From IMG/VR virus record IMGVR_UViG_3300035670_000478, positions 1-42,217 of that record: 42,217 bases of DNA; one strand, written 5' to 3'. The first letter of the stretch is position 1; each line of letters opens with the position of its first letter. Below are positions 1 through 30,917 of this stretch, in pieces. Under the pieces are notes generated by a model. It searched no databases. It worked only from the letters and a program-made list of their open reading frames with translations, and was not told the DNA's origin. A program made the position numbers and the translations under genes. Source of the stretch: a virus.

Positions 1-111
1 ATATGTGGACTTCCAACTGGTTTGCGCATTTTAGTAAATGACATGAAACCAGACGGCACAAAAACAGCTAAGTCTTATAATTTAGAAAGAGATGCGGGGA
101 TTAATTTATAA
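1..111 (+). CDS. C-terminal end of a truncated gene, product unknown
   Basis: An open frame enters from the left edge and ends at TAA 109-111, giving the last 36 residues, which contain GLPTGLRILVNDMKPDG and end in DAGINL. No family is recognisable from this tail. It is the only plus-strand gene before 5773 and converges on the minus-strand adhesin-like array, with a 16-base gap. The start lies outside the window. Confidence 0.55.
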   Translation: MCGLPTGLRILVNDMKPDGTKTAKSYNLERDAGINL

Positions 112-127
112 TATTAGTCGTAAACTA

Positions 128-334
128 TTAAGGATTTTCGCAAAAGCAACAACCCGCCACAGCTTGTTCGACTGTTGAGCCAGATCCAACAAGAAAATTA
201 ATACACCCCTGATAATCATCTCCTTGACCATACCATGGAGCATTAGGATCGTCATAAGCATACCTTTGACCGACATCACATGTGTTGGCACACGGACTTT
301 TTGCATTTAATACGCTAAATATTGGTTCGTTCAT
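128..334 (-). CDS. NEPIFSVL-leader protein A, short and Cys-rich
   Basis: This 68-residue protein starts MNEPIFSVLNAK, the leader shared with at least five other genes up to 5666. The body is rich in cysteine (CANTC near the start, CCFC near the end) with a DPNAPWYG segment between. There is no signal peptide and no recognised domain. No Shine-Dalgarno site precedes the start; instead an AT-rich TATAAT box ends four bases before the ATG, and a short copy of the upstream element at 368-380 lies about 34 bases further up. Because the leader is conserved while the body is not, I infer that the leader is an anchor to the virion and the body the exposed part. Function is otherwise unknown. Confidence 0.7.
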   Translation of the reverse strand: MNEPIFSVLNAKSPCANTCDVGQRYAYDDPNAPWYGQGDDYQGCINFLVGSGSTVEQAVAGCCFCENP

Positions 335-367
335 AAAATTATATATTATAAAAAAATATAATTTTTT

Positions 368-380
368 AATTTGACTTTTG
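368..380. repeat. Short copy of the array upstream element
   Basis: The 13 bases AATTTGACTTTTG recur inside the longer repeats at 917-942 and 5724-5749. All three copies lie 30-60 bases upstream of a NEPIFSVL-leader gene on the minus strand. Confidence 0.6.
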
Positions 381-388
381 ATGATTTG

Positions 389-886
389 TCATGCAAATGT
401 TAAACTAAGACTTGCTGGATAATTAGCATCACAACCCACACAATTTCTATAGATATCCAATGCATCGCTGTTGTTTGATATCCCAGCCAGAGACCATCCG
501 GAAGTTGGAAAACTGCCTTGCGTTCCGCTTGCCGTTGCTAAGACACCACTGTCACAACCAGTCTTAACCAAAAGCCATTTTTCCTCTGAACTTCCTCCAT
601 TACAATAATAATCTAGGTTATGAATGAACAACCATTCACCTTTAATATATCCTGGACCGGGCAGCGGGAAGTTTCCTTCTCCAGAATCAGCAGTATAGAC
701 ATAGGCACCATTAGGGTCTCCCGCTTGGAATATACTACCTACTGTGGAACAAAAACAATTAGCACAACCTGCATAATTATAATAATTTTCCATATCACAT
801 CCAGGTGCTGGAAAATTAGATAAGGTAAATGATGCTGGTAACTTGCCTGTTAAAACACTAAATATTGGTTCGTTATTTTCACTCAT
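389..886 (-). CDS. NEPIFSVL-leader protein B, Cys-rich
   Basis: This 165-residue protein starts MSENNEPIFSVLTGK, the array leader. The body is Cys-rich (CANCFC near residue 45, CDSG near 110, CVGC near 150), Gly/Ser/Asn-rich and without a known domain. It looks like a compact, disulfide- or metal-stabilised beta protein, but that is inference. The start has no Shine-Dalgarno site; TATAAT ends four bases before the ATG, so the message may be leaderless. A 15-A run (900-914) and a full copy of the upstream repeat (917-942) precede it. Likely an exposed tail or fibre component, by analogy with its LamG-bearing siblings. Confidence 0.7.
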   Translation of the reverse strand: MSENNEPIFSVLTGKLPASFTLSNFPAPGCDMENYYNYAGCANCFCSTVGSIFQAGDPNGAYVYTADSGEGNFPLPGPGYIKGEWLFIHNLDYYCNGGSSEEKWLLVKTGCDSGVLATASGTQGSFPTSGWSLAGISNNSDALDIYRNCVGCDANYPASLSLTFA

Positions 887-916
887 AAAATTATATATTA
901 AAAAAAAAAAAAAATA

Positions 917-942
917 AATAATTTTTCCAATTTGACTTTTGC
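917..942. repeat. 26-base repeat upstream of array gene B
   Basis: This block is identical over 26 bases to 5724-5749 and contains CCAATTTGACTTTTGC. On the minus strand it sits 31 bases upstream of the gene ending at 886. It may be a promoter or enhancer element for array genes, or a recombination target. Confidence 0.7.
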
Positions 943-956
943 CCTTAATTATTTAA

Positions 957-1199
957 TTAATTGATTGACATTGTAAGGGATGCGTTACTAATGTTTCCAT
1001 TAATCCCGGTACTCAATACCGTTATCGTAGGTGGTGGCACTTGATTTATAGTGTGTTGCGATGGAGTGCCTGCCGTTGTTCTAAACGGTAGTCCTCAGTG
1101 AAGAAAACTACGATTGGGCAAGGCTTTTTAAGCAGTGATGGGCAAATTTTTTCCTTCAAGCAAAAACAATGCTATGCCTATACATCGATGTCTTATTTG
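957..1199 (-). pseudogene. In-frame remnant downstream of LamG gene C
   Basis: This 243-base stretch holds no intact gene. Read on the minus strand in the same frame as the gene ending at 1200, it gives protein-like sequence: GIALFLLEGKNLPITA, then TAA, a short run, TGA at 1095-1097, then a 45-codon open piece including NQVPPPTITVLSTG and ending ISNASLTMSIN with TAA at 957-959. No start codon or ribosome site introduces the pieces. I read it as the decayed C-terminal part of a longer array protein or of a deleted neighbour. Chance openness of about 45 codons cannot be excluded, but the composition (Pro, Thr, Gly, Asn) looks like a fibre protein. Confidence 0.4.
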
Positions 1200-1916
1200 T
1201 TAGCTGGTCGGGAATGCGGCGGCCGGCGGCGTGAAAGTGGTGCCATCGGGGTAGCGACACGCGAGTGTTATGCGCACGTCATCAATATATCGCACCATGG
1301 AAGTAAATGATGACGCTCCAATCCGCACTTCTTCATTATTGCCATGAAAAGTACCAGCCACTGTCGCAGAGCCAATCTGAATACCATCAACATATAGACG
1401 CAATACATTGGCGGCATCTCTGCATACGGCAATATGGTGCCATGTTGCTGCTGCAATGGCATTGTTTGCTGTTATGCGAGTGTATCCGTCAGTTTCAATG
1501 TATATGGTGGCTCCCACGTGTCTGATGCTAATGTTATAGTTTTCACCGGACAAGTCGCTTTGCTGAAAAAAAGTCGCGTCTGCATAGCCTGAGATTGATT
1601 CCGTCCGGTACCACATTTCAATGGTGAATTGGCCAGTAAACTCAAAAGCATTCGCTGGGCCAGATACGGAGATTCTGTTGCGAACATAATAATTTTGCAA
1701 AACTTCGCTCAGCCGCACCGCAGACCCGAACTTCGCCACTCCGGATTGTTGTACGGCACGGTCTGTGTAATCCTGCTGATAAAGCGTAACAGACTTTGGC
1801 GAAGAACTGACATCAACTATGGTTTGATCTGTGCCATCAAGCGGCAGTAGAAGAATTACGCTACTCCACAGGGGATCACCCTTGCCCGTCAATACGCTAA
1901 AAATTGGTTCGTTCAT
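1200..1916 (-). CDS. NEPIFSVL-leader protein C with LamG (concanavalin A-like) domain
   Basis: This 238-residue protein starts MNEPIFSVLTGKGDPLWSS. Residues about 20-235 form a LamG/concanavalin A-like fold: LLLPLDGT at the start, FTIEMWYRT, ATWHHIAVCRD, LRLYVDGIQIGSA, and the ending DDVRITLACRYPDG then TFTPPAAAF. This ending is typical of LamG modules on phage tail and fibre proteins, which probably bind surface glycans. Local GC is high (41 of 60 bases at 1201-1260), unlike most of the window, so the body was probably acquired recently. The start lacks a Shine-Dalgarno site and has TATATAATTATT just before the ATG. Virion attachment through the leader is inferred. Confidence 0.8.
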   Translation of the reverse strand: MNEPIFSVLTGKGDPLWSSVILLLPLDGTDQTIVDVSSSPKSVTLYQQDYTDRAVQQSGVAKFGSAVRLSEVLQNYYVRNRISVSGPANAFEFTGQFTIEMWYRTESISGYADATFFQQSDLSGENYNISIRHVGATIYIETDGYTRITANNAIAAATWHHIAVCRDAANVLRLYVDGIQIGSATVAGTFHGNNEEVRIGASSFTSMVRYIDDVRITLACRYPDGTTFTPPAAAFPTS

Positions 1917-1948
1917 AATAATTATATATATTAATATTTTAAAATATT

Positions 1949-2398
1949 TTATACAATGTGTGCTGTTAAAGTTACATTATCTGTACCTCCGTCATCGCCA
2001 CCATCTTTCCAATATATTAGAACCAAATATTCTCCACTAACAACAGAAATAGAACCTGATAAAGCAGATTCTCCAGAGCCTTGCCTAATTTCAATCCAAC
2101 CATTAGGCCTTGATTGTTGGTAAAAGTGTTGAAATGGAGGTGTGGATCCCTTCCACAACAAACCATAATCATATCCACTTTCGCTACTTGGATCTAATGT
2201 ATAATTAAGAGTTCCTGTTTGTGCTATTAAGATCCAAAGCCTATTATCATTAGAATGATTACCTCCAACTGTTGCGACTAGTATTGAGTGGAAAGGCATC
2301 AATGAGTTTTGCTGGATTTTATTTTACAGTTGGCGGTGTTGCTAGTAGCGAATACACCGTAACAGGCAGCGGCATACACTGAAAATTGGTTCACTCAT
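1949..2398 (-). pseudogene. NEPIFSVL-leader gene D, interrupted by two in-frame stops
   Basis: ATG at 2398 opens MSEPIFSV, identical at DNA level to gene E through codon 8, then diverges and stops at TAG 2342-2344. A TAA follows in the same frame. The frame then stays open for 117 codons from 2302 (TTG, or ATG at 2299) to 1949, giving a beta-rich protein with LWILIAQTGTLNYTLDP and DGGDDGGTDNVTLTAHIV. Leader and body are exactly in frame (96 bases apart), so one gene seems to have been broken by insertion or point changes. The body could still be made from TTG/ATG at 2302/2299, but no ribosome site is visible there. Confidence 0.6.
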
Positions 2399-2438
2399 AT
2401 TGTTTAATCCTTTGTTTTGGTTGTCTTCTTAAACTCGT

Positions 2439-3149
2439 TTAGTTGGTCAAGAATGCCGCAGTAGGTGGTGTGAAAGTGGTGCCGTCGGGATAACGGCAGG
2501 AGCGCGTGTAGCGCAGATCGTCAACACCCATTCGTGCGCTAGTGCCGTCGCTAAAGCTGCCGACAATCAGCCAGCCGTCGGGGATATTCCTAGAGTCGGA
2601 GAGTGTGCCAGTCTGAATTCCATTGGAATAGACGCGAAGCGTCCCGCCTTGTCGCACCGCAGCAAGATGATGCCACGATCCACTGGCAACTGTGATATCA
2701 CCCCCAATTGGAGTAGATGTATAGGCAACGGAAGTGATTCCGACCGTTAGCCCAAGCCCTGACTTAGCCAGAATTGTTAGATGCGGCCCTTCTCCATACT
2801 GATGCCCAAGTAGCAGAATTCGATGATACTGCCCGCCGAACCCAAACCCATCTGCAAAAGACTGCCCGCGCAGCCAAAACTCCACCGTAAAGTCGCCGGT
2901 GCCAGGAGCAGGCACGGCATATTTTAACCCCAGGCCTTGGCCGGCGTAAGTATTACCCGACACTTCTCCGTACGAAGCATACGACCCAAACTTGCCTGTC
3001 GCAGCTATGTTTGGCGCAACATCGTGGGGTATCGGAACGATCCCGGACTTCACATCGATCGTGTTGGTGTCGAACGGCACGAGCAGGCCGACGCTGCTCC
3101 ACAATGGATCGCCCTTGCCCGTTAATACACTGAAAATTGGTTCACTCAT
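2439..3149 (-). CDS. NEPIFSVL-leader protein E with LamG domain
   Basis: This 236-residue protein starts MSEPIFSVLTGKGDPLWSS. The LamG/concanavalin A-like body has GDFTVEFWLRG, GSWHHLAAVRQGGTLRVYSNG and the ending CRYPDGTTFTPPTAAF. It resembles gene C at both ends but differs in the middle. GC is strikingly high (37 of 60 bases at 2461-2520) against about 20-35 percent nearby, suggesting transfer from a GC-rich phage. The start is preceded by a good site (GAGGAAACAAT then ATG) that is shared with genes F and H. Likely a carbohydrate-binding virion protein; attachment by the leader is inferred. Confidence 0.8.
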   Translation of the reverse strand: MSEPIFSVLTGKGDPLWSSVGLLVPFDTNTIDVKSGIVPIPHDVAPNIAATGKFGSYASYGEVSGNTYAGQGLGLKYAVPAPGTGDFTVEFWLRGQSFADGFGFGGQYHRILLLGHQYGEGPHLTILAKSGLGLTVGITSVAYTSTPIGGDITVASGSWHHLAAVRQGGTLRVYSNGIQTGTLSDSRNIPDGWLIVGSFSDGTSARMGVDDLRYTRSCRYPDGTTFTPPTAAFLTN

Positions 3150-3176
3150 ATTGTTTCCTCTATAATTTAGTATATA

Positions 3177-4286
3177 TTACTTTGGCAATGCTGCGGTCGG
3201 TGGTGTAAATGAAGAACCATCAGGATAACGACAAGCAAATGTCACTCTGTAATCATCAACATAGCGAAGAGCGTTCGTGGAAGCAGAAGTTGTTACTTGA
3301 AGAAGTATCCGAACAAATCCTGAGTTAACACCATCCCAAGAACCACTACTCGTGGCAGTGCCGACCTGTTGTCCGTCTATATAAAGTCTCAGCAGATCCC
3401 CGGCATCGCGAACCAAGGCCACATGAACCCAAGTGTTTGCAGATAAAACGCTGCCTGAATTTATCAAAAGAGATCCGGCATTGTCTGAAACTTTAATCGC
3501 CGGCCCATCTTGCCATAATCTGATATTTCGTAGATAACCAGAAAATTGAGTAAAAAGATAGCACTGAGATGTTGAGACTTGGGCCGTTTGAAACCAACAT
3601 TCTATGGTGAATAACGAAGGCAGAATAAAACCAGTAGTTTGACAATACCCACCGCCATAACCAGCTTCTGCATCTACTTCTAGGGCTTGTCCAAATTTTG
3701 TGACAGATCCTTGGGTTCTTGCTATTTCCACAAATTCTCCATCACCTAGATTAATAATAGCATTTAGACTTAACGAGCTTTCATAAGGGCTAAAGTCTTG
3801 TGCGGTGGTGCCTATCCCGTCAAATGGAATAAGTAGACGAACATCTCCATAAAGCGGATCAGAAACGGGAGACGCATACGCAGACAAATTAGAAACTTTG
3901 ACATTGTTTCCTCCGAATCGTATCACATCTCCTGCTCGGAATTTTATGTTTACAGAAAAAGAAGGAGTTGAGCCAAATTCGGGCGCTTCTATTGAATGTT
4001 TGGTTACGCCATTTTCTTGTATTTGTAGTGATTGCGAACTATCGCCACACCACACCTCTACATCCGTACCGGATATGCTAAATACCCCAGCATCCAATGT
4101 GGTGAATGTTGTCATCCACTCGCTATTTTGATTAGGACCAGAACCACATGCTCCAAGTGGACCAGCTAAAGTCCAAGGAGACTCGGCAGTCCCGTATCCA
4201 GCATAGTCCGTATGCCTACCGCTGGTTATTTCTATTAGATTAGAAGGTTTTCCTGTCAATACGCTAAAAATCGGTTCATTACTCAT
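3177..4286 (-). CDS. NEPIFSVL-leader protein F: extra N-terminal domain plus LamG
   Basis: This 369-residue protein starts MSNEPIFSVLTGKPSNL. Residues about 18-135 form an extra beta-rich domain (WTLAGPLGACGSGPNQN, VEVWCGDSSQSLQIQENG). The rest is a LamG/concanavalin A-like domain: FTIECWFQT, NTWVHVALVRDAGDLLRLY, IDGQQVGTA, and the ending CRYPDGSSFTPPTAALPK. It is the only array member joining two kinds of body, so it may show how bodies are stacked. The ribosome site is GAGGAAACAAT before ATG 4286. Base composition is closer to the phage average than in C and E. Probably a tail or fibre-associated adhesin. Confidence 0.8.
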   Translation of the reverse strand: MSNEPIFSVLTGKPSNLIEITSGRHTDYAGYGTAESPWTLAGPLGACGSGPNQNSEWMTTFTTLDAGVFSISGTDVEVWCGDSSQSLQIQENGVTKHSIEAPEFGSTPSFSVNIKFRAGDVIRFGGNNVKVSNLSAYASPVSDPLYGDVRLLIPFDGIGTTAQDFSPYESSLSLNAIINLGDGEFVEIARTQGSVTKFGQALEVDAEAGYGGGYCQTTGFILPSLFTIECWFQTAQVSTSQCYLFTQFSGYLRNIRLWQDGPAIKVSDNAGSLLINSGSVLSANTWVHVALVRDAGDLLRLYIDGQQVGTATSSGSWDGVNSGFVRILLQVTTSASTNALRYVDDYRVTFACRYPDGSSFTPPTAALPK

Positions 4287-4296
4287 ATTGTTTCCT

Positions 4297-4803
4297 CTAT
4301 AATTTAGTATATATTAAATTATCATTTCTATATTGTTCCTTAATTAATTCGATTTGGCCACCAGTAAGAACTGGCTTATTAATTTCTTGATTCATCTGTG
4401 GAACTGGAGTGGGTAAGCCCAAAAATTCTGCACAAAGATTTATTTCTTCTGGGAACTTAAAATGAGTTACACCTTCTGCAAGAAGGCCCATATCTTCTAA
4501 ACTCCAAAAATGAACATCATATTCTTTTAATTTTAGACCTTCTTCCACTGTTACACCCTGTCTAGCACATGCTGAACGAAATCTATCCACTGGGTTTCTT
4601 ACTAGGCAACATAAGTCCGAAATATCTGTTTCTACTAAAGGAGACCCGATAGAGTCGCCGGTAGCGTTAATCGGGTGCCAACGCTCTCTGTTTGGATTTC
4701 TTAAATTTTCTGGCAATGCTTGCCAAATTATACTGTAGCTTCCACTACGAGCAACTAAGGCAAATTTTTTCCCGTTTGGTAAAGTTATCTTGGCACCTTT
4801 CAT
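4297..4803 (-). CDS. Sulfotransferase-like protein
   Basis: This 168-residue protein has the two hallmarks of PAPS-dependent carbohydrate sulfotransferases: a 5'-phosphosulfate loop, here ARSGSYSI at residues 18-25, and the 3'-phosphate motif RNPVDRFRSA at 69-78. It ends with a typical helix-rich tail (LIKEQYRNDNLIYTKL). It is shorter than most family members. It lacks the array leader although it sits between two leader genes, eight bases after gene H stops, with GAGG before the start, so it is co-transcribed with them. It might sulfate a host or virion glycan. The loop has Ser-Tyr where Ser-Thr is usual, so activity is not certain. Confidence 0.6.
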   Translation of the reverse strand: MKGAKITLPNGKKFALVARSGSYSIIWQALPENLRNPNRERWHPINATGDSIGSPLVETDISDLCCLVRNPVDRFRSACARQGVTVEEGLKLKEYDVHFWSLEDMGLLAEGVTHFKFPEEINLCAEFLGLPTPVPQMNQEINKPVLTGGQIELIKEQYRNDNLIYTKL

Positions 4804-4811
4804 CTTAACCT

Positions 4812-5666
4812 CTATAATGGATTCGCCAATACATAGGCGGTATCAGATACAGCTCCATAATTTCCATCTGTTTTCAATCTAATTTGGTACGTTCCTGATT
4901 TTAGCACTATAGTTTGATTGTAATTGCCCGGACTAACTAAAGTGTTGTTGTAATAATAGCCATCTTTGTACAAAGTCCAATTGTTTGCTGTGTTGCCATT
5001 TAAAGACAAAGATCTGAGCGGTCTTCTATCGACATATAAAACTGATGCTTGATAATGTTGAGTGCCTACACTTGCGTAAAAAGTAACATCAGAATCTTGT
5101 AATAAATCGAATGTTAAGTATCCTTCTGAAGTATTAGAATATATGCGATAATCAATGCGATTTAATGATTCACTATATGTAAGGCCAGAAACTTCTGATG
5201 TAAACAACCATCCAGGAATTTCTCGTTGAAGTATAGATTGCGGAGTATAAGTAGGAAATGTTCGATATGATTGAGCCGTGATTCTTGTGCCTGAATAAGA
5301 GATAGTTCTAGACGCAAACCCAAATCGATTAATAGAGGCGTAGTATTTTCCGGGACTTAACGACTGCCCAGCAGAATAAGTATAATAACCATCTTTATCG
5401 AGTGTGCCTCCGCCAAGATTCGTTGGAGAGGCTAATATGCTAAACATATTTGAAGATTGAGACAAAGTACCCGAACCTTCTAATGATAACACAACTGTAG
5501 TTGCAAATCCAGAAATTGAGGTGCTATTGCCGTTACTGTACACAGTAATTAAATTATCATTTGAATTAATTGCGTATGGATTGCTTTCTCTGCCTGTTGA
5601 TGTGCTGATAAAATCTAGAGCGGAAGGTTTTCCTGTCAATACGCTAAAAATTGGTTCATTACTCAT
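4812..5666 (-). CDS. NEPIFSVL-leader protein H, tandem PPC-like beta-sandwich
   Basis: The start at 5666 is chosen because it opens MSNEPIFSVLTGKPSALDF after a strong site (TTGGAGGAAACAAC); an open frame continues upstream but without the leader. The protein has 284 residues. The body contains a repeated pattern: LDKDGYYTYSAGQSLSPGKY and LYKDGYYYNNTLVSPGNY, each followed by beta strands, as in two bacterial pre-peptidase C-terminal (PPC)-like sandwiches. These are non-catalytic modules on exported proteins. It is the first gene of the array transcript, divergent from dut. A TATAAT box (minus strand, about 5680) and the 26-base repeat at 5724-5749 lie upstream. Confidence 0.75.
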   Translation of the reverse strand: MSNEPIFSVLTGKPSALDFISTSTGRESNPYAINSNDNLITVYSNGNSTSISGFATTVVLSLEGSGTLSQSSNMFSILASPTNLGGGTLDKDGYYTYSAGQSLSPGKYYASINRFGFASRTISYSGTRITAQSYRTFPTYTPQSILQREIPGWLFTSEVSGLTYSESLNRIDYRIYSNTSEGYLTFDLLQDSDVTFYASVGTQHYQASVLYVDRRPLRSLSLNGNTANNWTLYKDGYYYNNTLVSPGNYNQTIVLKSGTYQIRLKTDGNYGAVSDTAYVLANPL

Positions 5667-5723
5667 GTTGTTTCCTCCAATTATTATAAATTGCAAAAAA
5701 TATAAAATAATTGTTAAATTTTT

Positions 5724-5749
5724 AATAATTTTTCCAATTTGACTTTTGC
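5724..5749. repeat. 26-base repeat upstream of array gene H
   Basis: This is identical to 917-942. On the minus strand it lies 58 bases upstream of gene H. On the plus strand its TTGACT forms the -35 box proposed for dut. Confidence 0.7.
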
Positions 5750-5766
5750 TTATTTTTTGGTAAACT
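5739..5766 (+). promoter_or_regulatory. Sigma70-like promoter for dut
   Basis: TTGACT (5739-5744), a 16-base spacer, and TAAACT (5761-5766) lie just before the dut ATG at 5773. Only six bases separate the -10 box from the start codon, so the transcript would be nearly leaderless. Confidence 0.45.
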
Positions 5767-5772
5767 CTCTTC

Positions 5773-6195
5773 ATGAAAATTAAATTATTAGATAAAAATG
5801 CAAAAATTCCATTTAGAGCAAATAAAAAAGATGCAGGAGCAGATCTTTGTTCAATAGAAGATTGTAAAATTGAGCCTTTAGAACGAAAAGCAGTCAGCAC
5901 AGGAATTGCTGTAAAGATCCCAGACGGCTATTACGGTAGAATAGCTCCAAGATCTGGCTTGGCTTATAAAAATGGCATAGATGTACTCGCAGGCGTTATA
6001 GACAGCGATTACACCGGCGAAATAAAAGTAATATTATTTAATACTGATAAAGAACAAAGTTTTGAAATAAATAAAGGTGATAGAATTGCTCAATTAATAA
6101 TTGAAGATCATTTTAATTTTGATTTTGAAGTTGTTGAAGAGTTGGTTGATACCGAAAGAGGCAGCGGAGGATTCGGGTCTACAGGAGTAAGGTGA
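5773..6195 (+). CDS. dut: dUTP diphosphatase (dUTPase)
   Basis: This trimeric-type dUTPase hydrolyses dUTP to dUMP and pyrophosphate, keeping uracil out of phage DNA and feeding dTMP synthesis. All five family motifs are present and in order over 140 residues: DAGADL (20-25), PRSGLA (59-64), GVIDSDYTGEI (74-84, with the catalytic Asp), GDRIAQLI (about 102-109) and the C-terminal lid RGSGGFGSTG. The length is normal for the family, so the enzyme should be active. No Shine-Dalgarno site precedes the ATG; a promoter-like pair ends six bases upstream. The next gene starts two bases after its stop. Confidence 0.96.
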   Translation: MKIKLLDKNAKIPFRANKKDAGADLCSIEDCKIEPLERKAVSTGIAVKIPDGYYGRIAPRSGLAYKNGIDVLAGVIDSDYTGEIKVILFNTDKEQSFEINKGDRIAQLIIEDHFNFDFEVVEELVDTERGSGGFGSTGVR

Positions 6196-6972: not shown

Positions 6973-7989
6973 ATTTGTGGAATAGCTGGCTATATCGGAT
7001 GTTCAAAAAATCCTGAATTAACTTATAATATTATTTCAAATTTATTTAAAAATTTAGAAATTAGAGGCGAAGACGCTTCTGGATTTTGGGGTTGGAATGA
7101 TCAAAATTTGATTTTATATCACAAAGAACCGCTCAAGTCTTCTAAATTTGTAAATAAGAAAATTTGGCAAGACACTAGACATATTAATCCCAATATAATG
7201 CTATGCCACGCCCGAGGAGCTTCTCCGGGATCAGGTTTGCCAATAGTTAATAATAATAATCATCCATTTGTTAGTCATGATCTTTCAATAGGTCTAATTC
7301 ATAATGGGAAAGTTTCAAATAGTACTTATAATAAATTAATTAAAAATTACCAAGTCGAATCTTCTTGCGATTCTGAAATATTATTAAGAATTTTTCAATC
7401 TAATAAAAATAAGGACAAATTAAATAAAATTAAAAGTATTTTAGAAAATGCATATGAATCTCATATGGCAATTGCTATAGGAGAAATAATAGAAAAAGAA
7501 AGAAGATTATATTTGTTTAGAAATGAATTTAGAAGTCTTTATTTTGTTGATATGATTGAAGAACTCAATCAATGTTTTTTTGTATCTACAAAAGAAATAT
7601 GGGACAAAGCAACAGACTGTTTTAATATAAAATATAAAATAGAAGAAATTCCCATCGAAGATATTTGGATTTTAGAAATTAAAAATAACAAATTAATATT
7701 AGAAAAATTTGAGACTAAAACACAAGGATTTCAAATTCAGAATAATAAAGATTTTTATAAAATTGAAAAAGTTAAGCTCTCAGACAAAAATATTTACACT
7801 AATTTGAATGAAAAAGAAGAAAGCTTAGAGCCAGATATTCAAATTGCTGTTAGGTCAAAAGAGATTTGTTCTAATATAATAAGTGATCTTTTTGAATTAG
7901 AAGATAAGATACAAAATAATATTGATGAAGAATTTTTAAATAAATTAATTAGTATCGAAAAGGATATTTTAAATTTATTAAAAAAATGA
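6973..7989 (+). CDS. Class II glutamine amidotransferase with an ATT start codon
   Basis: Class II (Ntn) amidotransferases need Cys directly after the initiator Met. Here the frame reads TGA (6967-6969), TTT, ATT, then TGT GGA ATA GCT GGC TAT: CGIAGY. The only start that puts Cys at position 2 is ATT 6973, with GTGGGTGA just upstream as ribosome site. The product has 338 residues. Other family marks are RGEDASG (about 34-40), HARGASPG (about 79-86), NNHPF and LIHNGKV, and DSEILLRI. It would release ammonia from glutamine for transfer to an acceptor; no synthetase domain follows, and the C-terminal third is unrelated helices. A partner may be the COOH-NH2 ligase at 26082-26993. Confidence 0.85.
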   Translation: MCGIAGYIGCSKNPELTYNIISNLFKNLEIRGEDASGFWGWNDQNLILYHKEPLKSSKFVNKKIWQDTRHINPNIMLCHARGASPGSGLPIVNNNNHPFVSHDLSIGLIHNGKVSNSTYNKLIKNYQVESSCDSEILLRIFQSNKNKDKLNKIKSILENAYESHMAIAIGEIIEKERRLYLFRNEFRSLYFVDMIEELNQCFFVSTKEIWDKATDCFNIKYKIEEIPIEDIWILEIKNNKLILEKFETKTQGFQIQNNKDFYKIEKVKLSDKNIYTNLNEKEESLEPDIQIAVRSKEICSNIISDLFELEDKIQNNIDEEFLNKLISIEKDILNLLKK

Positions 7990-8001
7990 CTATATTAATT
8001 T

Positions 8002-8577
8002 ATGGAAGAAGATAATATAGAAATAGAAATTGAAAATTTATTAGATAAAAAAAATAAAAAAATTAAATCTGGTAAAAAAGGTAAAAGAGTAGAGCTAGAA
8101 GTAGTAAAGCTATTAAATAATAGGTTTGCCGAACTATTATCTAAAAATCCATCTTACGGAAGATTCTCCAGAACAATTGGTAGCGGAAATCGTTGGGGGC
8201 AAAATGTATATTTATCTAAAACGGCCATGGATAATTTTTCCGGCGATTTAGTTTGTCCTACTAATTTTAAATTTATAATAGAGTCTAAAGGTGGATATAA
8301 CGATATAGATTTGTGTTCTGCTTTCGAAGGTGGGCAATCCGAACTTGATGCTTTTTTAAAACAGGCCTCAGACGATTCAGAAAGAACAAATAGAAAGCCT
8401 ATGCTATTATGGAAAAAAGATAGAAAACCAAGATTATCTTTTATAAAATCAAGCGATATAGAATTTGATAATTATAAAAATTTTGAATATCACATGAAGT
8501 ATAGAGATTGGATAGGCCTTAGTTTAAATGATTTACTAAAATTGCCTGATAGTTTTTTCTTTTTAGAAAACTTGTAA
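8002..8577 (+). CDS. PD-(D/E)XK nuclease-like protein
   Basis: This 191-residue protein shows the layout of a PD-(D/E)XK nuclease: a helix with E33 (GKRVELEVVKLL), then SRTIGSGNRWGQ, D82 in SGDLVCP, and E94-x-K96 in FIIESKGGY. Such phage proteins are often resolvase-like or repair nucleases. The N-terminus is Lys-rich (KKNKKIKSGKKGKR), suiting DNA contact. The start has no Shine-Dalgarno site (CTATATTAATTT before ATG). The 3' end overlaps the convergent structural gene by 15 bases. Confidence 0.7.
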   Translation: MEEDNIEIEIENLLDKKNKKIKSGKKGKRVELEVVKLLNNRFAELLSKNPSYGRFSRTIGSGNRWGQNVYLSKTAMDNFSGDLVCPTNFKFIIESKGGYNDIDLCSAFEGGQSELDAFLKQASDDSERTNRKPMLLWKKDRKPRLSFIKSSDIEFDNYKNFEYHMKYRDWIGLSLNDLLKLPDSFFFLENL

Positions 8578-9300
8578 TTGTAAATTGTCTGAAATATATT
8601 TATTTTCTCCAAATTCCATTTCAAACCAAACATTATAAATTCCACAATCCATATTTAATTCTTCTGTATTTACAAAGTAGCTTCCTTCTGTTCCACGACG
8701 ATGTTCTACCGGATCGCCTTCGACCACTAACCTTAGATCTTTTTCTTTTGGAACACAATCTCCACATGCTTTTTCGATCCAAATTTTAAGAGGCGAAGCA
8801 ATCGCTAAATTAGCATAATACCTCTTGAGATCAGATATGTTCGGAACATTAGGAATAACTTCTATGTTTATCCATCTTTTTTCTCCATATCTTAATCTAT
8901 TAGGCCTAAATCCAAATGAAAAGTCATAGATTATAGGAAGATCAGAAGCAAACCAAAGATCTGGAATTACTGCAAATTCATTTGTAACAGTCCCAGATTG
9001 AGAAGAATCAAAATTAACGTACCATACATCAATGTACTTGCCTATAACAAATAATTGATCTTCCAATTCAAATTCAATAGAGTATTGACCATCCTCTACC
9101 GTCGTCACATCAGCCGACTCTATAGTTTTAACCAGTCTTTTTCCTTCTGGATTTTCATTTGTTATGCAAGTTTCATCTAAATAATATATTTCTACTTTAT
9201 TGACATTTTGTACATTTTGTCTTTGATTAGAATTATATGTAAATAATCTTAATATAAGATCATTACCAACTACTATGTTTTGATTTCTTTCTTTTGGCAT
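8563..9300 (-). CDS. Putative virion structural protein, beta-rich
   Basis: This 245-residue protein has no recognised domain but looks like the beta-sandwich structural proteins common next to baseplate genes: VEDGQYSIEFELEDQLFVIG, then KYIDVWYVNF, IPDLWFASDLPIIYDFSF, and a second sandwich near the C-terminus (YNVWFEMEFGENKYISDNL). Its ATG overlaps the stop of the -1-frame gp51-like segment by one base (TAATG), so it is translated together with the baseplate gene upstream. It overlaps the nuclease gene at its 3' end by 15 bases. Role in baseplate or tail is inferred from position. Confidence 0.65.
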   Translation of the reverse strand: MPKERNQNIVVGNDLILRLFTYNSNQRQNVQNVNKVEIYYLDETCITNENPEGKRLVKTIESADVTTVEDGQYSIEFELEDQLFVIGKYIDVWYVNFDSSQSGTVTNEFAVIPDLWFASDLPIIYDFSFGFRPNRLRYGEKRWINIEVIPNVPNISDLKRYYANLAIASPLKIWIEKACGDCVPKEKDLRLVVEGDPVEHRRGTEGSYFVNTEELNMDCGIYNVWFEMEFGENKYISDNLQLQVF

Positions 9301-9527
9301 TATCTTTTCACCTTGGCTTTCTTCCTAGCGGCTTCCATAGCTTCGTTTTCTTTTTCTTTTTGTTGTATGAATCTGTCTATCAGCCATTTTCTTTCATTTA
9401 TTGGTAAAATCATAAAATTTTCTCTAGACTGCTTCATATGATACATGAAAAAGAACATCTCTTCCATTAAGTTTCGCCATAGGCCTAAGCTTGAGTCGCT
9501 GTAGTCTTTCTCCTTGCCTTGGGGAAG
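9300..9527 (-). CDS. gp51-like segment, probably made as a -1 frameshift extension of the gp26-like protein
   Basis: In the -1 frame relative to the baseplate gene, an open frame runs from before the slippery site to TAA at 9300-9302. It encodes SSLGLWRNLMEEMFFFMYHM, a Pro-Ile-Asn-Glu-Arg-Lys-Trp segment and a charged helix ending KKAKVKR. This short Trp/Phe/Tyr-rich piece resembles the C-terminal part of frameshifted tail or baseplate assembly chaperones, and the gp51-like segments next to gp26 in T4-like phages. Made by frameshift it would add 75 residues to 345 of gp26, giving about 420. A separate start at ATG 9467 (55 residues) is possible, but no clear ribosome site precedes it. Confidence 0.65.
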   Translation of the reverse strand, partial: LPQGKEKDYSDSSLGLWRNLMEEMFFFMYHMKQSRENFMILPINERKWLIDRFIQQKEKENEAMEAARKKAKVKR

Positions 9528-10561
9528 AAAAAATTTGCTTCAAGTGGAAGTTCGATTTCAAAATCATTAAGTGTGTAAGGATTATTTATAGAAACTTTTG
9601 TCTCTACTCCAAAAGGAGGTTCATTAACAACAGTTCTTAAATAAGCAACATCTTGAATTGGTAGTTTTTTCAATAATGTTTGAATTTCTAGTTTATTACT
9701 GAGTCCTTCAATTTCTTCGAGCAAATAAGCAGTCCTGTACAACAAAGTATCATCAGCTTGTCCTGATAAATCGAAGTTTTTAGCTCTTCTTTCTCTGTAT
9801 TCTTGTACCGCTTGTTCATCTCGGCCAGTAGCTAGTCTGTACTTGAAATTATAACCAGTAACTGGCAAAACATCTTCTAAATTTGAAAAGGAAAAATTTT
9901 CATCACAATAATTAACATAAAGTTCATTTAAATTTATTGTAGTTGCAAAAGTTTGATCTGAGTCAGGATCTTTTACTTCTACGTCATATTCTGGCGTGTA
10001 TGATATGCCTCTTAAGTAAATTAATAAATAGGTTCTATCTTGCGTTAAGAAATTAGAACTATCAAAATTTTCTTGCATACATCTATTAAATATCATATTG
10101 ATTGCTTGGCCTTTTTTGACAAATCTCGGAGTGGCCAGAATTTCTTCTTCTTCTCCAGTCATTGGTCTAATGTGCAAGACTCCATCTGTAGGCCCGTCTT
10201 CTCCATTATAGAACTTTCCTTTAGAAGGAAGTTCTATTTTTTCATAAATCATATTGCCTTTAGAGGCAATTCCAGCAATAAGTTCTTCTAATTTGCTACT
10301 CCCAGTAACTCTCATTTCGCTCTGCTTGGCTGGTTGTTCTTTCTTATTGTTTTTGCTTCCCATTCTCTGTGCAGCCAAAGCATTCTTAAAAGCCGGTGGT
10401 ACGTTTCCTGTTATTTTTACGCCGCCTTCTCTTTGAGTTTGAACTTCTTGTTCAATTTGTTCCATAACTTCTTCTTGATCAACAACTTCTTCTTCTACAT
10501 TTTGATTTACTTCCGCTGCAGAAATTGGCTTTTTTTGAGGCCTGAAAGTTTCATCTGACAT
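9485..10561 (-). CDS. T4 gp26-like baseplate hub/assembly protein
   Basis: This 358-residue protein carries the T4 baseplate (gp26) family signature: IELPSKGKFYNG at about 105, LHIRPMTGEEEEILATPRFV at about 130-150, AINMIFNRCMQ, TYLLIYLRGISYTPEYDVEV, and FKYRLATGRDEQA. The first 100 residues are a low-complexity, Glu/Gln-rich extension not usual in gp26. It acts in assembly of the baseplate hub. The site AAGGAGAAATAA precedes the ATG. The 3' end contains a -1 slippery heptamer (9527-9533) and overlaps an out-of-frame gp51-like segment, so two products are predicted: 358 and about 420 residues. Confidence 0.85.
   Translation of the reverse strand: MSDETFRPQKKPISAAEVNQNVEEEVVDQEEVMEQIEQEVQTQREGGVKITGNVPPAFKNALAAQRMGSKNNKKEQPAKQSEMRVTGSSKLEELIAGIASKGNMIYEKIELPSKGKFYNGEDGPTDGVLHIRPMTGEEEEILATPRFVKKGQAINMIFNRCMQENFDSSNFLTQDRTYLLIYLRGISYTPEYDVEVKDPDSDQTFATTINLNELYVNYCDENFSFSNLEDVLPVTGYNFKYRLATGRDEQAVQEYRERRAKNFDLSGQADDTLLYRTAYLLEEIEGLSNKLEIQTLLKKLPIQDVAYLRTVVNEPPFGVETKVSINNPYTLNDFEIELPLEANFFFPKARRKTTATQA
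9527..9533 (-). promoter_or_regulatory. Predicted -1 slippery heptamer T TTT TTC
   Basis: In the zero frame of the gp26-like gene the codons are AAT TTT TTC, so the heptamer T_TTT_TTC fits the X_XXY_YYZ rule exactly. After slipping one base back, tRNA-Phe can re-pair with TTT TTT. The zero frame stops 14 codons later at 9485-9487, while the -1 frame stays open to 9300. Confidence 0.65.
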
Positions 10562-10611
10562 TTATTTCTCCTTTTTTTTGTAATTTGCAAATTGTTTATT
10601 CTTATAAGAGT

Positions 10612-10989
10612 ATGATTCAGATAAATATTCAAAACGTAGAAGAAATAATTTTTAGAAATGATAAAATTTGGCGAGATTTGCCTGATTTGAGATATCTTAG
10701 GGAACAGTGGAGAATGAGTAAAATATCTCCTGTTTTGCGGGCTTTGGGAAAAAAATCACTATTAGAGTTTTTAAATAAAATTAAAAAAGAACACGAATCT
10801 ATAATTTCTAAGCATATTGGGACTTCTGTTGTTATTGATAAGATAGATTATTTTTTGGTAAAAAATATGGAATTTTCAATAGAAGATTCTGAATTAGAAC
10901 TCAATTTGATAGAGGCAAAGCAACCTTTATATCCTTATTTTGCTACTTATAGAAAAAATGATAAAATTCACATAACTTTTTGGAGGTAA
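10612..10989 (+). CDS. Conserved-looking phage protein, unknown
   Basis: ATG 10612 is taken because the earlier in-frame codon is a TTG at 10585 with no ribosome site. The 125-residue product has LPDLRYLREQWRMSKISPVL near the start, then basic helices and a beta C-terminus (KNDKIHITFWR). It resembles no domain I know. The first gene of a four-gene plus-strand operon, it is divergent from gp26, with the 12-base palindrome AATTTGCAAATT between them. No Shine-Dalgarno site; TATAAG stands three bases before the ATG. Confidence 0.65.
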   Translation: MIQINIQNVEEIIFRNDKIWRDLPDLRYLREQWRMSKISPVLRALGKKSLLEFLNKIKKEHESIISKHIGTSVVIDKIDYFLVKNMEFSIEDSELELNLIEAKQPLYPYFATYRKNDKIHITFWR

Positions 10990-10992
10990 ACA

Positions 10993-11307
10993 ATGTCTAA
11001 TTTAATTTTATTTTGTTTTTCGGTTATAGGCTTTACGCATATAATTGTAGACCCGGCTACTATTGCAAAACCTTTTAGAGACTTCGTCGAAAAATACTGC
11101 TTCTCTTGGTTGAATAAACTGTTCTCTTGTTATCAATGTTGTGGTACTTGGGTAGGTTTCTTTTGCGGATGGGTTTTGATTTCTAAAGATCCATTTCAAG
11201 TTTTTTTATGCGGAATGGCGGGTAGTTTCTTATCAACATTTGCGGCAACATATTTGAATTATTTAGAAGCACAAAGTATAGTTGAATTGAACGATCAAAA
11301 TGACTAG
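10993..11307 (+). CDS. DUF1360-like small membrane protein
   Basis: This 104-residue protein has an N-terminal hydrophobic segment (about 3-22), the motif SCYQCCGTWVGFFCG (about 45-59), and a second long hydrophobic stretch (about 50-90). The C-x-x-C-x-G-x-W-x-G pattern is that of the DUF1360 family of small phage and Bacillus membrane proteins, whose role is unknown. A strong site (TTGGAGGTAAACA) precedes the ATG. It overlaps the next gene by eight bases. It could act at lysis or at the host membrane, but nothing in the sequence proves this. Confidence 0.65.
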   Translation: MSNLILFCFSVIGFTHIIVDPATIAKPFRDFVEKYCFSWLNKLFSCYQCCGTWVGFFCGWVLISKDPFQVFLCGMAGSFLSTFAATYLNYLEAQSIVELNDQND

Positions 11308-11536
11308 CATATTGTATTGTGAATATTGTAATTGGAAAAAGATTCTAAGAGACAAAGATCCATCTGAAAAAGATGTTTTTAAGTGCCCTTCTTGTGGTCG
11401 AATTATAAAATTAAAAAAAATATCTGATCCGCAAAAAGAATTAGAGCTTCAAATAAAAAAAGAAAAAGATGAAGAAGAATTGAAAAAATGGATGGAAGAC
11501 ACGCTAAAGTATAGAGAGGAATTTAATAATGAATAA
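11300..11536 (+). CDS. Small zinc-ribbon protein
   Basis: In this 78-residue protein, CEYC at residues 7-10 and CPSC near 29-32 form a single treble-clef or ribbon-type zinc site, followed by a long charged helix (QIKKEKDEEELKKWMEDTL). It overlaps both neighbours by eight bases, a sign of coupled translation. Likely a nucleic-acid or protein adaptor; the family is unknown. Confidence 0.65.
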   Translation: MTSILYCEYCNWKKILRDKDPSEKDVFKCPSCGRIIKLKKISDPQKELELQIKKEKDEEELKKWMEDTLKYREEFNNE

Positions 11537-11909
11537 AAAAATAAGTCTTATTGAAGTTAAAGCCGCACTAAAAGATTCAAGATTTAGGCTTTCTTTACCA
11601 AAAAGTTTAGAAAAAGAAGTTAATGAATTTTTAAACAATCCGGGTTGTCCCTGTCACATTCCTCTTTACAGAAAAGTTTTAAAAGAATGTAGAGAACAAC
11701 TGCAAAAATATTACCCGAATTCAGAAATTGCTGATGAAGTAGAAGAAATAAAAAAAATAGCTGATAATCAATGGGTTGTTATAAATTGTCATATAGATGA
11801 TTTAGAAAAAGAACTCAGAAAACTAGGCCCAGGAAGAAAGCAATTAGATGTAGCTAGATTTGAAGATCAAGTTACCGTTGTTATCAACGAATTAGATATA
11901 ATATTTTAG
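11529..11909 (+). CDS. Unknown phage protein with GCPCH motif
   Basis: This 126-residue helical protein has LPKSLEKEVNEFLNNPGCPC at about 23-42, then HIPLYRKVLKECREQL. The C-terminal part is beta-rich (VARFEDQVTVVINELDIIF). No known domain is visible. It is the last gene of the operon beginning at 10612, and its stop overlaps the stop of the convergent glycosyltransferase gene by four bases. Confidence 0.65.
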   Translation: MNKKISLIEVKAALKDSRFRLSLPKSLEKEVNEFLNNPGCPCHIPLYRKVLKECREQLQKYYPNSEIADEVEEIKKIADNQWVVINCHIDDLEKELRKLGPGRKQLDVARFEDQVTVVINELDIIF

Positions 11910-12823
11910 TTGCTAAAAATCTCTATTTTTTTATTGAATTCATCTATATTTTTTATCATTTTTTCTGGGTATTCTTTGTATTTTTCTATTTCTATGGGCA
12001 ATTTATCATTTTTTCTTTGCGATCCTATTATTGTTGCGTTTTCATAAAAAGCCTTAGATTTTTTTAATTTATTTTGTTTGTAATAAATATCTCCCAACAA
12101 ACACCAAAACTCAGCCAGGCTTGGATAATAAGACAAACAAGTCAAAGCCAACTCAGCTGCATCTCTTACTTTTTCTTGGTGCAATTTTACTTGTGCCATG
12201 TAATACTTCATCATTATTAACGAAGCATTTGTTTTATTTTCTCGAATAATGTATTCATTTGCATAAAAAAAGAATTTTTCAAAATTTCTTTTTGATAAAT
12301 AACAACAAGCCAAGTAATAATAAGGGTCAGAGTCCATAGGATTATTTTTCATCCATTGATTGGCCAATGATATTCTCTCTTCAGTATCATCTATATTTTT
12401 TTTTGAAGATATAATTATATTTGAATTTAATTTTGATTTTTTGCTAACAATTGTTTCGTAAATAGGATTAACAAATTTTTCTGAAGTCCATATTCTTGTT
12501 TCTTTTGAAATTACGTTATTATTAAAAACATAAATATCTGTTAATTCTTGTATTTTTTCTAAAATTTCTTGTCCTTCTACTAAAGTTTCCCAAGGATTAA
12601 TATAAAAATTTGTTCCTTCTACTGACAATGAATTTCTTATTTTAGCATAGTTTTTTTCTTCGATTTTAGACACCAAATCGGTGTATTTTTTACATATTTT
12701 TATTGAATCATCCGTACAGCCAAGATCGGCTATTATTATTTTTGATTTTACATCTTTTATTGATTGTAGAGTTTTTTCTATAGTGTTTTGATTATTTTTT
12801 ACTAATATCTGGATTGTTAGCAT
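11906..12823 (-). CDS. GT2-like glycosyltransferase fused to TPR-like helices
   Basis: This 305-residue protein begins as a family 2 glycosyltransferase (LTIQILVKNNQNTIEKTLQS, then KIIIADLGCTDDS), as in small GT-A enzymes that start chains from a nucleotide sugar. The usual DxD metal motif is not obvious; NPWETL (about 77-82) occupies that place, as in TPR-linked relatives. Residues about 150-285 are TPR-like helix pairs (DPYYYLACCYLSKRNFEKFF, AEFWCLLGDIYYKQNKLKKS). It may modify host glycans or virion proteins. It overlaps the small gene upstream by 32 bases, and gene 11529-11909 by four at its end. Confidence 0.7.
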   Translation of the reverse strand: MLTIQILVKNNQNTIEKTLQSIKDVKSKIIIADLGCTDDSIKICKKYTDLVSKIEEKNYAKIRNSLSVEGTNFYINPWETLVEGQEILEKIQELTDIYVFNNNVISKETRIWTSEKFVNPIYETIVSKKSKLNSNIIISSKKNIDDTEERISLANQWMKNNPMDSDPYYYLACCYLSKRNFEKFFFYANEYIIRENKTNASLIMMKYYMAQVKLHQEKVRDAAELALTCLSYYPSLAEFWCLLGDIYYKQNKLKKSKAFYENATIIGSQRKNDKLPIEIEKYKEYPEKMIKNIDEFNKKIEIFSN

Positions 12824-15068: not shown

Positions 15069-17516
15069 TTAGAAACTTTCGGCTACTTCATCAAAGCTAC
15101 CGGTTCGATGAATGCTGAATTCGATAAACATGAATTCTACTGCTCTTGTTGGTTGTACACCAATTCTTGCTCTAAATTCATTTCTATCTATGACATCTGG
15201 AGTATTCAACTCTTCGTCGGCTTTGATAATAAAGTCCGTTAGACCTCTTCCTACTTGAACTTCTTCAAGAATCTTCGTAGCTATTTGTACGAATTTGTCA
15301 CGGAAAATATCATCATGTGGATCGAATAGAAGTACTCTAGAGGCTGCTCTGATTCTCTTTTCGATGTAGAACATTAGTCTTCTTACATTGACTCTATCCA
15401 AAGCAGTTGGTTTTCTCTGCAATGTTTTTTGACCCCAAACTACGAAGTCTTGAGAATCAACATATTGAACTATTGGATTTATGGCATTTCTATTGCCGTA
15501 CATCAAATCTCTTTCTTCTAATGTTGGACGACTGAAAACGTCAGTAATGTTTGGAACAATACCTCTAGTTTGTCCAGCAGGAGCAAACCACGGACGTGCC
15601 AAAAAGTCATTTCTAGCATAAACAGCCATTACTGATCCGCTTGGTGGAATCCATACATCAACATTATTGAATGAATCTCTTACCTTTACCCAAGGCCAGT
15701 ATAAAGCGGCAAAGTCAGAATCAAATCTGGTTGTGTTTAGTGGGTGAGCACCATTTTGCCATTGAACAATTTCTTTTACTGTTAATCCAAAAGGAGGATC
15801 AACAATAGCCATGCAGTCAGATCTAAGATTTTGACACATGTCAATCATTGCCAAAATAATTCCTGTTGAAGAATGTCCTGGCACTGCGACTAAATCAATG
15901 TCAATCTGTTCTGGCTCACTTAGAGCGTAAAGTCCTGTCATTCCTAATAGATTGCCAATAATTAAGGTGTCTTGATTATCGGGATCAGCTGGAATGCCGT
16001 CACTTCCACCTGATAAACTGTAAGTTCCATCAAGAGGAGGAGCAGGATTGTCAGTATTATCTTCTACTCTAACAAAGTCTGAAACTAAAGATAAGAATGT
16101 TTCTACATAAAATCTACTAGTTTCATCTTTTGATAGATTTCCCCAAGACTCTAATTGAACGCCATTATTGTAAACTTCCATAATGAACGTTCCTTCTCTA
16201 ACATTATTTTTTACAACAACTTGAGTTGCGTTTCCATCGACACCTGGGCTATCTGCCATAATTGTCATCGAAACTGCACCAGATGTGTTGGAATCTCCAA
16301 CAACAAGACCTAAATCCTCTATGTCCGAATCGCCAGAAACACCAGAAGGAGTCAAGCCAACGGCTGTTACTGGAAATGTTGTTGCAGACTCGTCATCAGT
16401 AGGATCTGATAAAGGAGCATCAAATCCAAAAACTGCGTATGTCGAGCTGTCTCCCTTGACTAGTAATCTTGCGTCTCTACCATGATGTAGTGTTCTAAGA
16501 GATAAGTTGTCGCCAACGGCTACTGCTTCAAAACCTCCAGGAACGTCACCATTAGATATGGCGGAATTGATCGCTGTCACAACATCAGCAACAGCAACAG
16601 ATCCGTCTCCGTCGAACGAGGATAGATCTATTACTTGCACAACATTGTCTACGTTTACATTGTCTGTTCCATCTACAACAACGTGTAGATCACCGTCTGT
16701 TACGCTGCTCATGTCGAAAGAACCGGCAACGCCGCCAGTCATCTGTGCAAAGGTCATTCCTTTGCCAAGACCGGTTACGTTTACGTTGACATTGCTTCCA
16801 ACCACGGCAGAAGTACTTCCGCCGCATATTGAATCTTGAACTGATACTAGTTCTAGACTTGCACTTGGTCCGAAAGAAAACGTAGTGCGAACGGCAATCT
16901 TAGGAGTGGCTCCAGTTGTTGCATAGAACTCAATTCCATCAACATCAGAAATTAATTGTGAATTTAGGTCTTCTGCTAATTGTGCTGCTGAATATCCTGT
17001 CGAGTTCACAACAGGATCAGGATGATCACTATCAGCTAAAACTACAAGAGTTTTTGAAGCTAATATTCCATTTAATTTCCATTTGAAATAACTTGTTTTA
17101 TCAAATGTGTATTTGTTTGCTTTTGAACCTGATCCATTTGTGTAGTCAGAAACGATATTTATTTGGCCACCAGCACTCAACAAATCTACTTCTGCTGTTG
17201 TTGCCGATTCTGAATCTACTATGTCTGTTTCTGCGACTCTTACGATATAAAGTTCATTTGCCACTAGCAGATATTGCTCAGCAGCATAAATTAAGTAAGG
17301 GTCGCCGTTTTCTGGATGTGGATAACCAAAAATAGTATTAAGTTGTCTTCTTGTTGAAACCATTGTTGGAATATTGATTGGGCCTTTGCTGGCAAAGCCA
17401 ACTATTCCCGCTCTATGAAAAGATTGTTCTGGAGCGATGAAGCTCAAATCTTTTTCTGTTATTCTAACAGATGGTGAAATTGTGTTTGAAGGTGGAAAAC
17501 CTTTTAGAATTGCCAT
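15069..17516 (-). CDS. Tail sheath protein (gp18-like)
   Basis: This 815-residue contractile sheath subunit carries a typical N-terminus (SPSVRITEKDLSFIAPEQSF, then AGIVGFASKGPINIPTMVST) and a strongly conserved C-terminal domain: WVKVRDSFNNVDVWIPPSG, WFAPAGQTRG, RDLMYGNRNAINPIVQY, RVNVRRLMFYIEKRIRAASR and ARIGVQPTRAVEFMFIEF. It is clearly longer than T4 gp18 (659 residues). The excess lies in residues about 115-520, a beta-rich, Asp/Ser/Thr/Val-rich insertion with repeated VDG-type strands (DLHVVVDGTDNVNVDNVVQV), probably exposed outer-surface domains. Site AAAGGGAGAATAAAATT precedes the ATG. It is co-transcribed with the tube gene downstream and the small gene upstream. Confidence 0.95.
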   Translation of the reverse strand: MAILKGFPPSNTISPSVRITEKDLSFIAPEQSFHRAGIVGFASKGPINIPTMVSTRRQLNTIFGYPHPENGDPYLIYAAEQYLLVANELYIVRVAETDIVDSESATTAEVDLLSAGGQINIVSDYTNGSGSKANKYTFDKTSYFKWKLNGILASKTLVVLADSDHPDPVVNSTGYSAAQLAEDLNSQLISDVDGIEFYATTGATPKIAVRTTFSFGPSASLELVSVQDSICGGSTSAVVGSNVNVNVTGLGKGMTFAQMTGGVAGSFDMSSVTDGDLHVVVDGTDNVNVDNVVQVIDLSSFDGDGSVAVADVVTAINSAISNGDVPGGFEAVAVGDNLSLRTLHHGRDARLLVKGDSSTYAVFGFDAPLSDPTDDESATTFPVTAVGLTPSGVSGDSDIEDLGLVVGDSNTSGAVSMTIMADSPGVDGNATQVVVKNNVREGTFIMEVYNNGVQLESWGNLSKDETSRFYVETFLSLVSDFVRVEDNTDNPAPPLDGTYSLSGGSDGIPADPDNQDTLIIGNLLGMTGLYALSEPEQIDIDLVAVPGHSSTGIILAMIDMCQNLRSDCMAIVDPPFGLTVKEIVQWQNGAHPLNTTRFDSDFAALYWPWVKVRDSFNNVDVWIPPSGSVMAVYARNDFLARPWFAPAGQTRGIVPNITDVFSRPTLEERDLMYGNRNAINPIVQYVDSQDFVVWGQKTLQRKPTALDRVNVRRLMFYIEKRIRAASRVLLFDPHDDIFRDKFVQIATKILEEVQVGRGLTDFIIKADEELNTPDVIDRNEFRARIGVQPTRAVEFMFIEFSIHRTGSFDEVAESF

Positions 17517-30901: not shown

Positions 30902-30917
30902 TTTCAACCTCCTTGTT

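Follow-up and report, generated by a model that had tools for sequence, protein, structure and literature searches.

How do seven neighboring phage genes come to begin with the same few residues and then encode quite different bodies? The question is raised by a gene array in the window, by which we mean the whole 42,217-base IMG/VR record IMGVR_UViG_3300035670_000478, which derives from a contractile-tailed phage (sheath gene at 15069-17516). Within positions 128-5666, six intact genes (A, B, C, E, F, and G) and one broken gene (D) lie on the minus strand. Their products start with M-x(1-4)-EPIFSVLTGK, of which A carries a variant, and the bodies behind this leader, here called the tag, are unrelated. 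A degenerate leader pattern matches six times in the window against 0.01 expected from shuffles, and all seven leaders that an initial annotation of this DNA had described (five intact, variant A, and broken D) were located, on the minus strand. At the level of sequence, the comparisons below demonstrate that an N-terminal peptide is under selection, that the bodies behind it are interchangeable, and that the genes cluster, turn over, and have spread across lineages. The tag is probably a docking peptide for interchangeable accessory virion adhesins, a reading in which the domains of the bodies point to virion display.

The tag is kept as a peptide. Across B, C, E, F, and G the codons of EPIFSVLTGK hold no replacement and nine silent differences (P = 1.4e-6 against the neutral expectation), and the same test with A added, for six genes, gives P = 5e-5. 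For the tag, pooling gives a ratio of replacement to silent differences (pN/pS) of 0.05 for the window genes and 0.11-0.51 for those of other phages. Because silent sites have diverged while replacement changes number zero, the codon comparison indicates that the leader is held together by selection as a peptide and, in most cases, not by recent DNA copying. The leaders had been thought alike nearly at the DNA level. This is true of F and G (29 of 30 nucleotides (nt) identical; silent difference 0.15) and of D and E (32 nt), but the other intact pairs are only 73-90% identical over 30 nt, with silent-site differences of 0.39-1.05. Among B, C, E, F, and G alone, every pair but F/G differs by 0.45-1.05 at silent sites.

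There are also signs of short-range recombination around the start codon, in stretches shared by three pairs of genes. D and E have an exact 32-nt repeat across the start and unrelated sequence beyond it. E and F are identical at 30 of 30 nt upstream, a segment that before F is the 3' end of the untagged gene S, yet only 23 of the 30 tag nt agree. Around the start, a 62-nt stretch is 92% identical between F and G. For pairs of tag genes within a phage, identity averages 0.74 over the tag, with 0.31 and 0.41 upstream and 0.26-0.30 downstream, and it drops to chance immediately past the tag.

The tag is not confined to the window. Strict scans of IMG/VR for EPIFSVLTG[K] gave no match beyond the window, and the strict-scan match in GTDB (L076) was a chance match in the wrong frame. 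The idea that the leader is unique to the window was disproved by relaxed patterns. Patterns relaxed at one position revealed N-terminal tags in L079 and L080, and the pattern xPI[FY]SxLTGK revealed further ones; matches in L105, L106, and L116 were chance or internal matches and not tag genes. In five other phages the relaxed scans place [EGD]PI[FY]SxLxGK at N-termini, and the general form of the family is M-x(1-8)-[EGD]-P-[IV]-[FY]-S-x-L-x-[GAST]-K. The clusters contain three genes in G023 (150 kb), five in G024 (122 kb), four in G034 (238 kb), six in G025 (381 kb), and three, plus one elsewhere, in G027 (244 kb). Clustered tag genes are thus present in at least six distinct phages including that of the window. 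Most tags in the new clusters fail the scan pattern that led to them and hence provide independent evidence for the family. A regex scan of nearly the whole of G034, G025, and G027 found tags in the clusters only, apart from the extra G027 site. Tags are more alike within a phage (7.84/10) than between phages (6.68/10; p = 2e-4 in a permutation test that takes no account of relatedness among phages). The comparators are uncultured contigs throughout, and the collection searches may omit the records closest to the window. The family is probably larger than the searched tag patterns cover.

Searches of Pfam, NCBIfam, and named phages brought up no counterpart of the tag system, and ten tagged bodies that were scanned have no Pfam family. 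Among named phages, three tagged bodies used as queries found nothing, and neither did two tag peptides (20-22 aa), although such short queries make the test weak. A full-text literature search for the tag strings found no paper, in line with the statement of the initial annotation that no described system is known to have this leader. No other shared-leader array of the tag kind was found in the window's relatives. A second leader family may exist in L043, where three collagen-like genes (4991-5941, 7029-11537, and 11548-12426) have a different short leader, LFLGN[IV]LG, with three pattern matches in that record.

Comparison of these phages shows that bodies change behind the tag. At a locus common to three related phages (G034, G027, and G023) the flanking genes are kept, namely a PaaK-like gene (40-60% identical; the name rests on a weak NCBIfam match and a motif), a 134-aa gene (57-78%), and a 95-aa gene (74-81%), while the tagged genes among them vary in number and all their bodies differ. 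Conversely, homologous bodies carry different tags. The body of B, tagged EPIFSVLTGK, has a homolog (G025_6, L119:17030-17563; 40%, E 3e-33) tagged GPIYSMLSGK. G has a homolog in G027_3 (L124:8836-9669; E 5e-9) and a weaker one, over one short segment, in G025_3 (L119:14762-15700; E 0.012), both with a GPIYSVL tag. The body of A has a homolog in G023_2 (L095:609-788; 38% over 47 aa, E 0.002), and the body of G024_2 matches that of G034_2. Body exchange is well supported by the same flanks with different bodies, by homologous bodies with different tags, and by DNA-identical starts with unrelated bodies. The initial annotation asked for related phage contigs to be searched for the leader and named one set and order in all related genomes as its refutation; different bodies were found at equivalent sites, there are relatives without the array, and other phages have different sets. 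Decayed copies are common, as seen in D of the window, in G025_1 with a fragment of S, and in L119 near 10224. The 134-aa and 95-aa genes (L117:14274-14965) have weak relatives in the window at 11529-11909 and 10993-11307, away from the array.

Exchange had been proposed to run through both the shared leader and a shared end of the LamG genes C, E, and F. The phage comparison supports the leader side and the 3' end is unsupported. The last 40 or so residues are alike as protein (54-62% identity over the last 45 columns), but the silent sites are saturated there (pS 0.67-0.82); in the last 20 columns pN is 0.10-0.14 and pS is 0.66-0.79. The likeness of the LamG ends is, on these substitution patterns, a matter of protein constraint and not of DNA exchange.

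One partnership recurs. Gene S (4297-4803, minus strand; assigned by homologs and motif) is small, sulfotransferase-like, and untagged, and it lies between G and F. Its homologs in L124 and L119 are 66% identical and directly follow G-type tag genes. The order G-type gene, S, tagged gene is found in three phages, with gaps of 8-11 nt and then 10-16 nt, and the body after S is LamG in the window and one of two unrelated Cys-rich bodies in the other two phages. S resembles Sulfotransfer_2 (PF03567) in the arrangement of an RSGS...RNPVDRFRSAC motif and differs in being short (168 aa), below the cut-off, and without a PDB relative found. One member of the S family matches PF03567 at E 0.0088, below the Pfam cut-off, so the best member of the family misses the gathering score, and the window S protein has no PF03567 match. 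The partnership of S with G had been overlooked in the initial annotation, as had a gene remnant at 957-1094. Sulfotransferase-like paralogs also lie beside 2-oxoglutarate (2OG)-dioxygenase-like and discoidin-type fiber genes in two unrelated phages (L119:1047-3250 and L056:1953-3126). A subtilisin-like protease gene at 29942-30955 of the window has a 31% homolog (L124:5611-7218) that adjoins the G027 tag cluster.

The array block is an insertion, as judged from gene order and base composition. It consists of about 5.6 kb on the opposite strand between the 3' end of a HAD-phosphatase-like gene (1-111, plus strand) and a dUTPase gene (5773-6195, plus strand). Homologs of these two genes adjoin each other within about 30 nt in seven relatives without the array (L009, L010, L012, L013, L014, L017, and L021), the homologous HAD C-terminus running directly up to the dUTPase. 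The G+C content is 0.37-0.55 in the intact array genes and 0.28-0.31 elsewhere; gene E (0.55, with 0.557 at third codon positions (GC3)) and gene C (GC3 0.47) stand out. A regex scan of 127 kb of G002, the closest relative examined, found no tag; most proteins that G002 shares with the window phage are 50-93% identical. In L009 and L013, the gene next to the insertion site, on the upstream side of the HAD gene, encodes ribonucleotide reductase and has an intein-like insert (CVSADTRLLTRKGE...VFNGVLTGN). A protein of the window (24052-25629) with repeated TNLEKYG units and an endonuclease-like look has a homolog elsewhere in G002 (L056:15845), which suggests mobility.

The bodies range from A (68 aa, Cys-rich) through the LamG proteins C, E, and F to G (284 aa, no family). 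Gene A (128-334) is an open reading frame (ORF) that joins NEPIFSVLNAK to a 56-aa Cys-rich body, and gene B (389-886), also an ORF, joins NEPIFSVLTGK to a Cys-rich body. The remnant at 957-1094 (minus strand) translates as GLPFRTTAG...SLTMSIN*, the C-terminus of a gene otherwise lost, and has no leader. Gene C (1200-1916) has NEPIFSVLTGK and LamG (PF13385, E = 1.9e-19). In D (1949-2398), MSEPIFSV is followed by unrelated bases and stops, and then by a 117-aa body. Gene E (2439-3149) has SEPIFSVLTGK and a G+C-rich LamG body (E = 3.1e-12), gene F (3177-4286) has SNEPIFSVLTGK, a domain of about 120 aa, and LamG (E = 1e-16), and gene G (4812-5666) has SNEPIFSVLTGK and a beta-type body with the homologs in L124 and L119 given above. 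C, E, and F score 70.8, 47.3, and 61.9 bits, above the curated Laminin_G_3 (PF13385) cut-off of 27.6 bits, which A, B, D, and G do not reach. LamG is found in only three of the seven bodies, and the tag is independent of it. Of the bodies named earlier, the Cys-rich and LamG ones were recovered and Pfam does not confirm a PPC-like fold for D or G. PDB searches with G, C, and profiles of G and S gave nothing useful. In G002, a giant Thr-Pro-rich protein has a domain that matches the body of D (E 3e-11). The giant-protein region of G002 lies near a homolog of S and discoidin-type fiber genes, names that rest on the look of the sequence, and giant proteins with Thr-Pro-rich linkers alternating with adhesin-like domains occupy L055:13620-19999. 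An upstream element, CAAAAGTCAAATT, is repeated on the minus strand before A (364-381), B (925-942), and G (5732-5749); within the window, its exact 13-mer occurs only upstream of these three genes. The motif ACTAAATWA, considered as a late promoter, is enriched (9 occurrences against 3.25 expected) and lies before E and F, but it stands too near the start codons to be interpreted, and the copy before F falls within the 3' end of gene S.

The best precedent appears to be the conserved 7- and 11-residue N-terminal docking peptides on receptor-binding proteins of phages K1E, K1-5, and SP6 and of Klebsiella phages, which attach to an adaptor while the bodies are horizontally exchanged (PMC6872550). 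K1-type systems have from two to about eleven large depolymerase tailspikes in a structural region, a T4gp10-like adaptor, and a group-specific peptide (PMC6872550). If its proteins are adhesins, the array is like these systems in that several proteins with unrelated bodies begin with a conserved peptide of very few residues, and an identical 10-residue core was found in five intact genes plus one variant, with pN 0. It differs in that no depolymerase or tailspike body was found, the bodies being small Cys-rich, LamG, or beta-type and either LamG or without a Pfam family. In the window it also lies away from the block of structural genes, its tag can be recognized in unrelated lineages as one and the same, and the gene comparison, which was not a dedicated search, brought up no adaptor candidate. 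Given these differences, we do not assign the array to that group. The cyanophage S-SKS1 has a structural pair of LamG (PF13385) proteins with a shared start NGG.IG..N..FTGTKSDDPNYS and a shared end. The LamG genes of the window resemble this pair in fold and in being paralogs with common N- and C-terminal motifs, and the array differs in that only some of its bodies are LamG. The capsid-targeting sequence (CTS) of T4 internal proteins likewise uses a few N-terminal residues to direct unrelated proteins to a single compartment of the virion, but its sequence is different. As a separate observation, many proteins of the window and of its relatives have an aromatic-rich leader of the type MKFSEWL...[LI]xE (e.g., MKFKEFLLIE, FSNWINE, and FNNWYQLRE) that resembles the T4 CTS; such genes begin or end at 6604, 18900, 25595, 27040, 32831, 34320, 35808, and 36135 of the window.

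An unlikely alternative is that the tag, like the T4 CTS, serves for sorting inside the cell or for packaging into the head, with bodies that are injected and not displayed. In its favor are the N-terminal position of the tag, its shortness, its independence of the body, and the small size of many bodies; T4-like phages do use N-terminal targeting peptides (PMC9026906 and related papers). On the other hand, the prohead-protease site [LI]xE is absent from EPIFSVLTGK and its variants, other proteins of this phage group appear to carry a distinct CTS-like leader (MKFSEWL..[LI]xE), and LamG and fiber-shared domains are typically carried by outer structural proteins. The proteins might instead act at the host cell surface, for example to block rival phages or alter adhesion, with a host factor or membrane system recognizing the tag. 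A conserved host partner would explain the tag in unrelated phage lineages and extracytoplasmic sites suit Cys-rich bodies, but neither a hydrophobic signal-peptide core nor a lipobox or transmembrane segment is present in the tag, and the LamG and D-type domains are common to phage structural or giant fiber-like genes; we regard this as improbable. Plain tandem-duplicated paralogs, with the leader a functionless leftover and no exchange of bodies, would fit genes that stand head-to-tail with locally repeated start regions. The silent-site test largely contradicts this, the peptide being fixed while silent sites diverged, and so do non-homologous bodies and the same peptide in other lineages, which leaves such an origin very improbable. 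An assembly chimera, suggested by a metagenome contig with an abrupt change in base composition, is hardly credible given coherent ORFs, the same architecture in independent contigs, and two tag phages recovered repeatedly from different samples at 99.96-100% identity.

Several findings also weigh against docking on the virion. No shared socket gene emerged from the gene comparisons, in which no dedicated adaptor search was made and the window is a 42-kb fragment. The tag spans lineages that share almost no core genes: G023 and G024 have almost none in common with the window phage, and the same is true of the cluster regions of the other tag phages. Hence, any partner would need either to be widespread or to be passed on together with the tag. 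Both EPIF-type and GPIY-type tags occur within G023 and within G024, and a single partner specific to each phage is less plausible for that reason. The array of the window sits in a nucleotide-metabolism operon and not in a tail-fiber region. Near-identical contigs of the same phages (G025 and G026; G027, G029, G030, G031, and G032; G024, G028, and G033) show no body exchange, although they are no population test. AlphaFold models were unusable (predicted local distance difference test (pLDDT) 41 for G and 30 for F).

We nevertheless favor the docking peptide. The link to adhesion is indirect and comes from LamG in C, E, and F and from the body of D, which is a domain of the G002 giant protein. 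The tag would serve as an address that fits each protein into a socket of the virion, and any body with a fitting tag would be displayed. The bodies, with lectin-like LamG folds, beta-type domains, and small Cys-rich folds, may act as accessory adhesins. The bodies could turn over when genes are inserted or duplicated and when recombination, illegitimate or guided by short homology, takes place near the start codon, with broken copies left behind. Gene order prompts the guess that the sulfotransferase-like partner may modify the proteins on display or the glycans they carry. It is conceivable, though doubtful, that the tag is a plug standard across lineages, in which tag-body genes and the G-S pair move between unrelated phages that have little core genome in common and are displayed at once through a widespread, as yet undescribed socket. 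If the tag docks proteins on virions, several large uncultured phages would possess a natural modular display system with an address of about 10 residues. The tag would then provide a handle for naming many Cys-rich phage orphans that have no family, and a testable mechanism by which phages change their surface proteins while the main tail fibers remain untouched.

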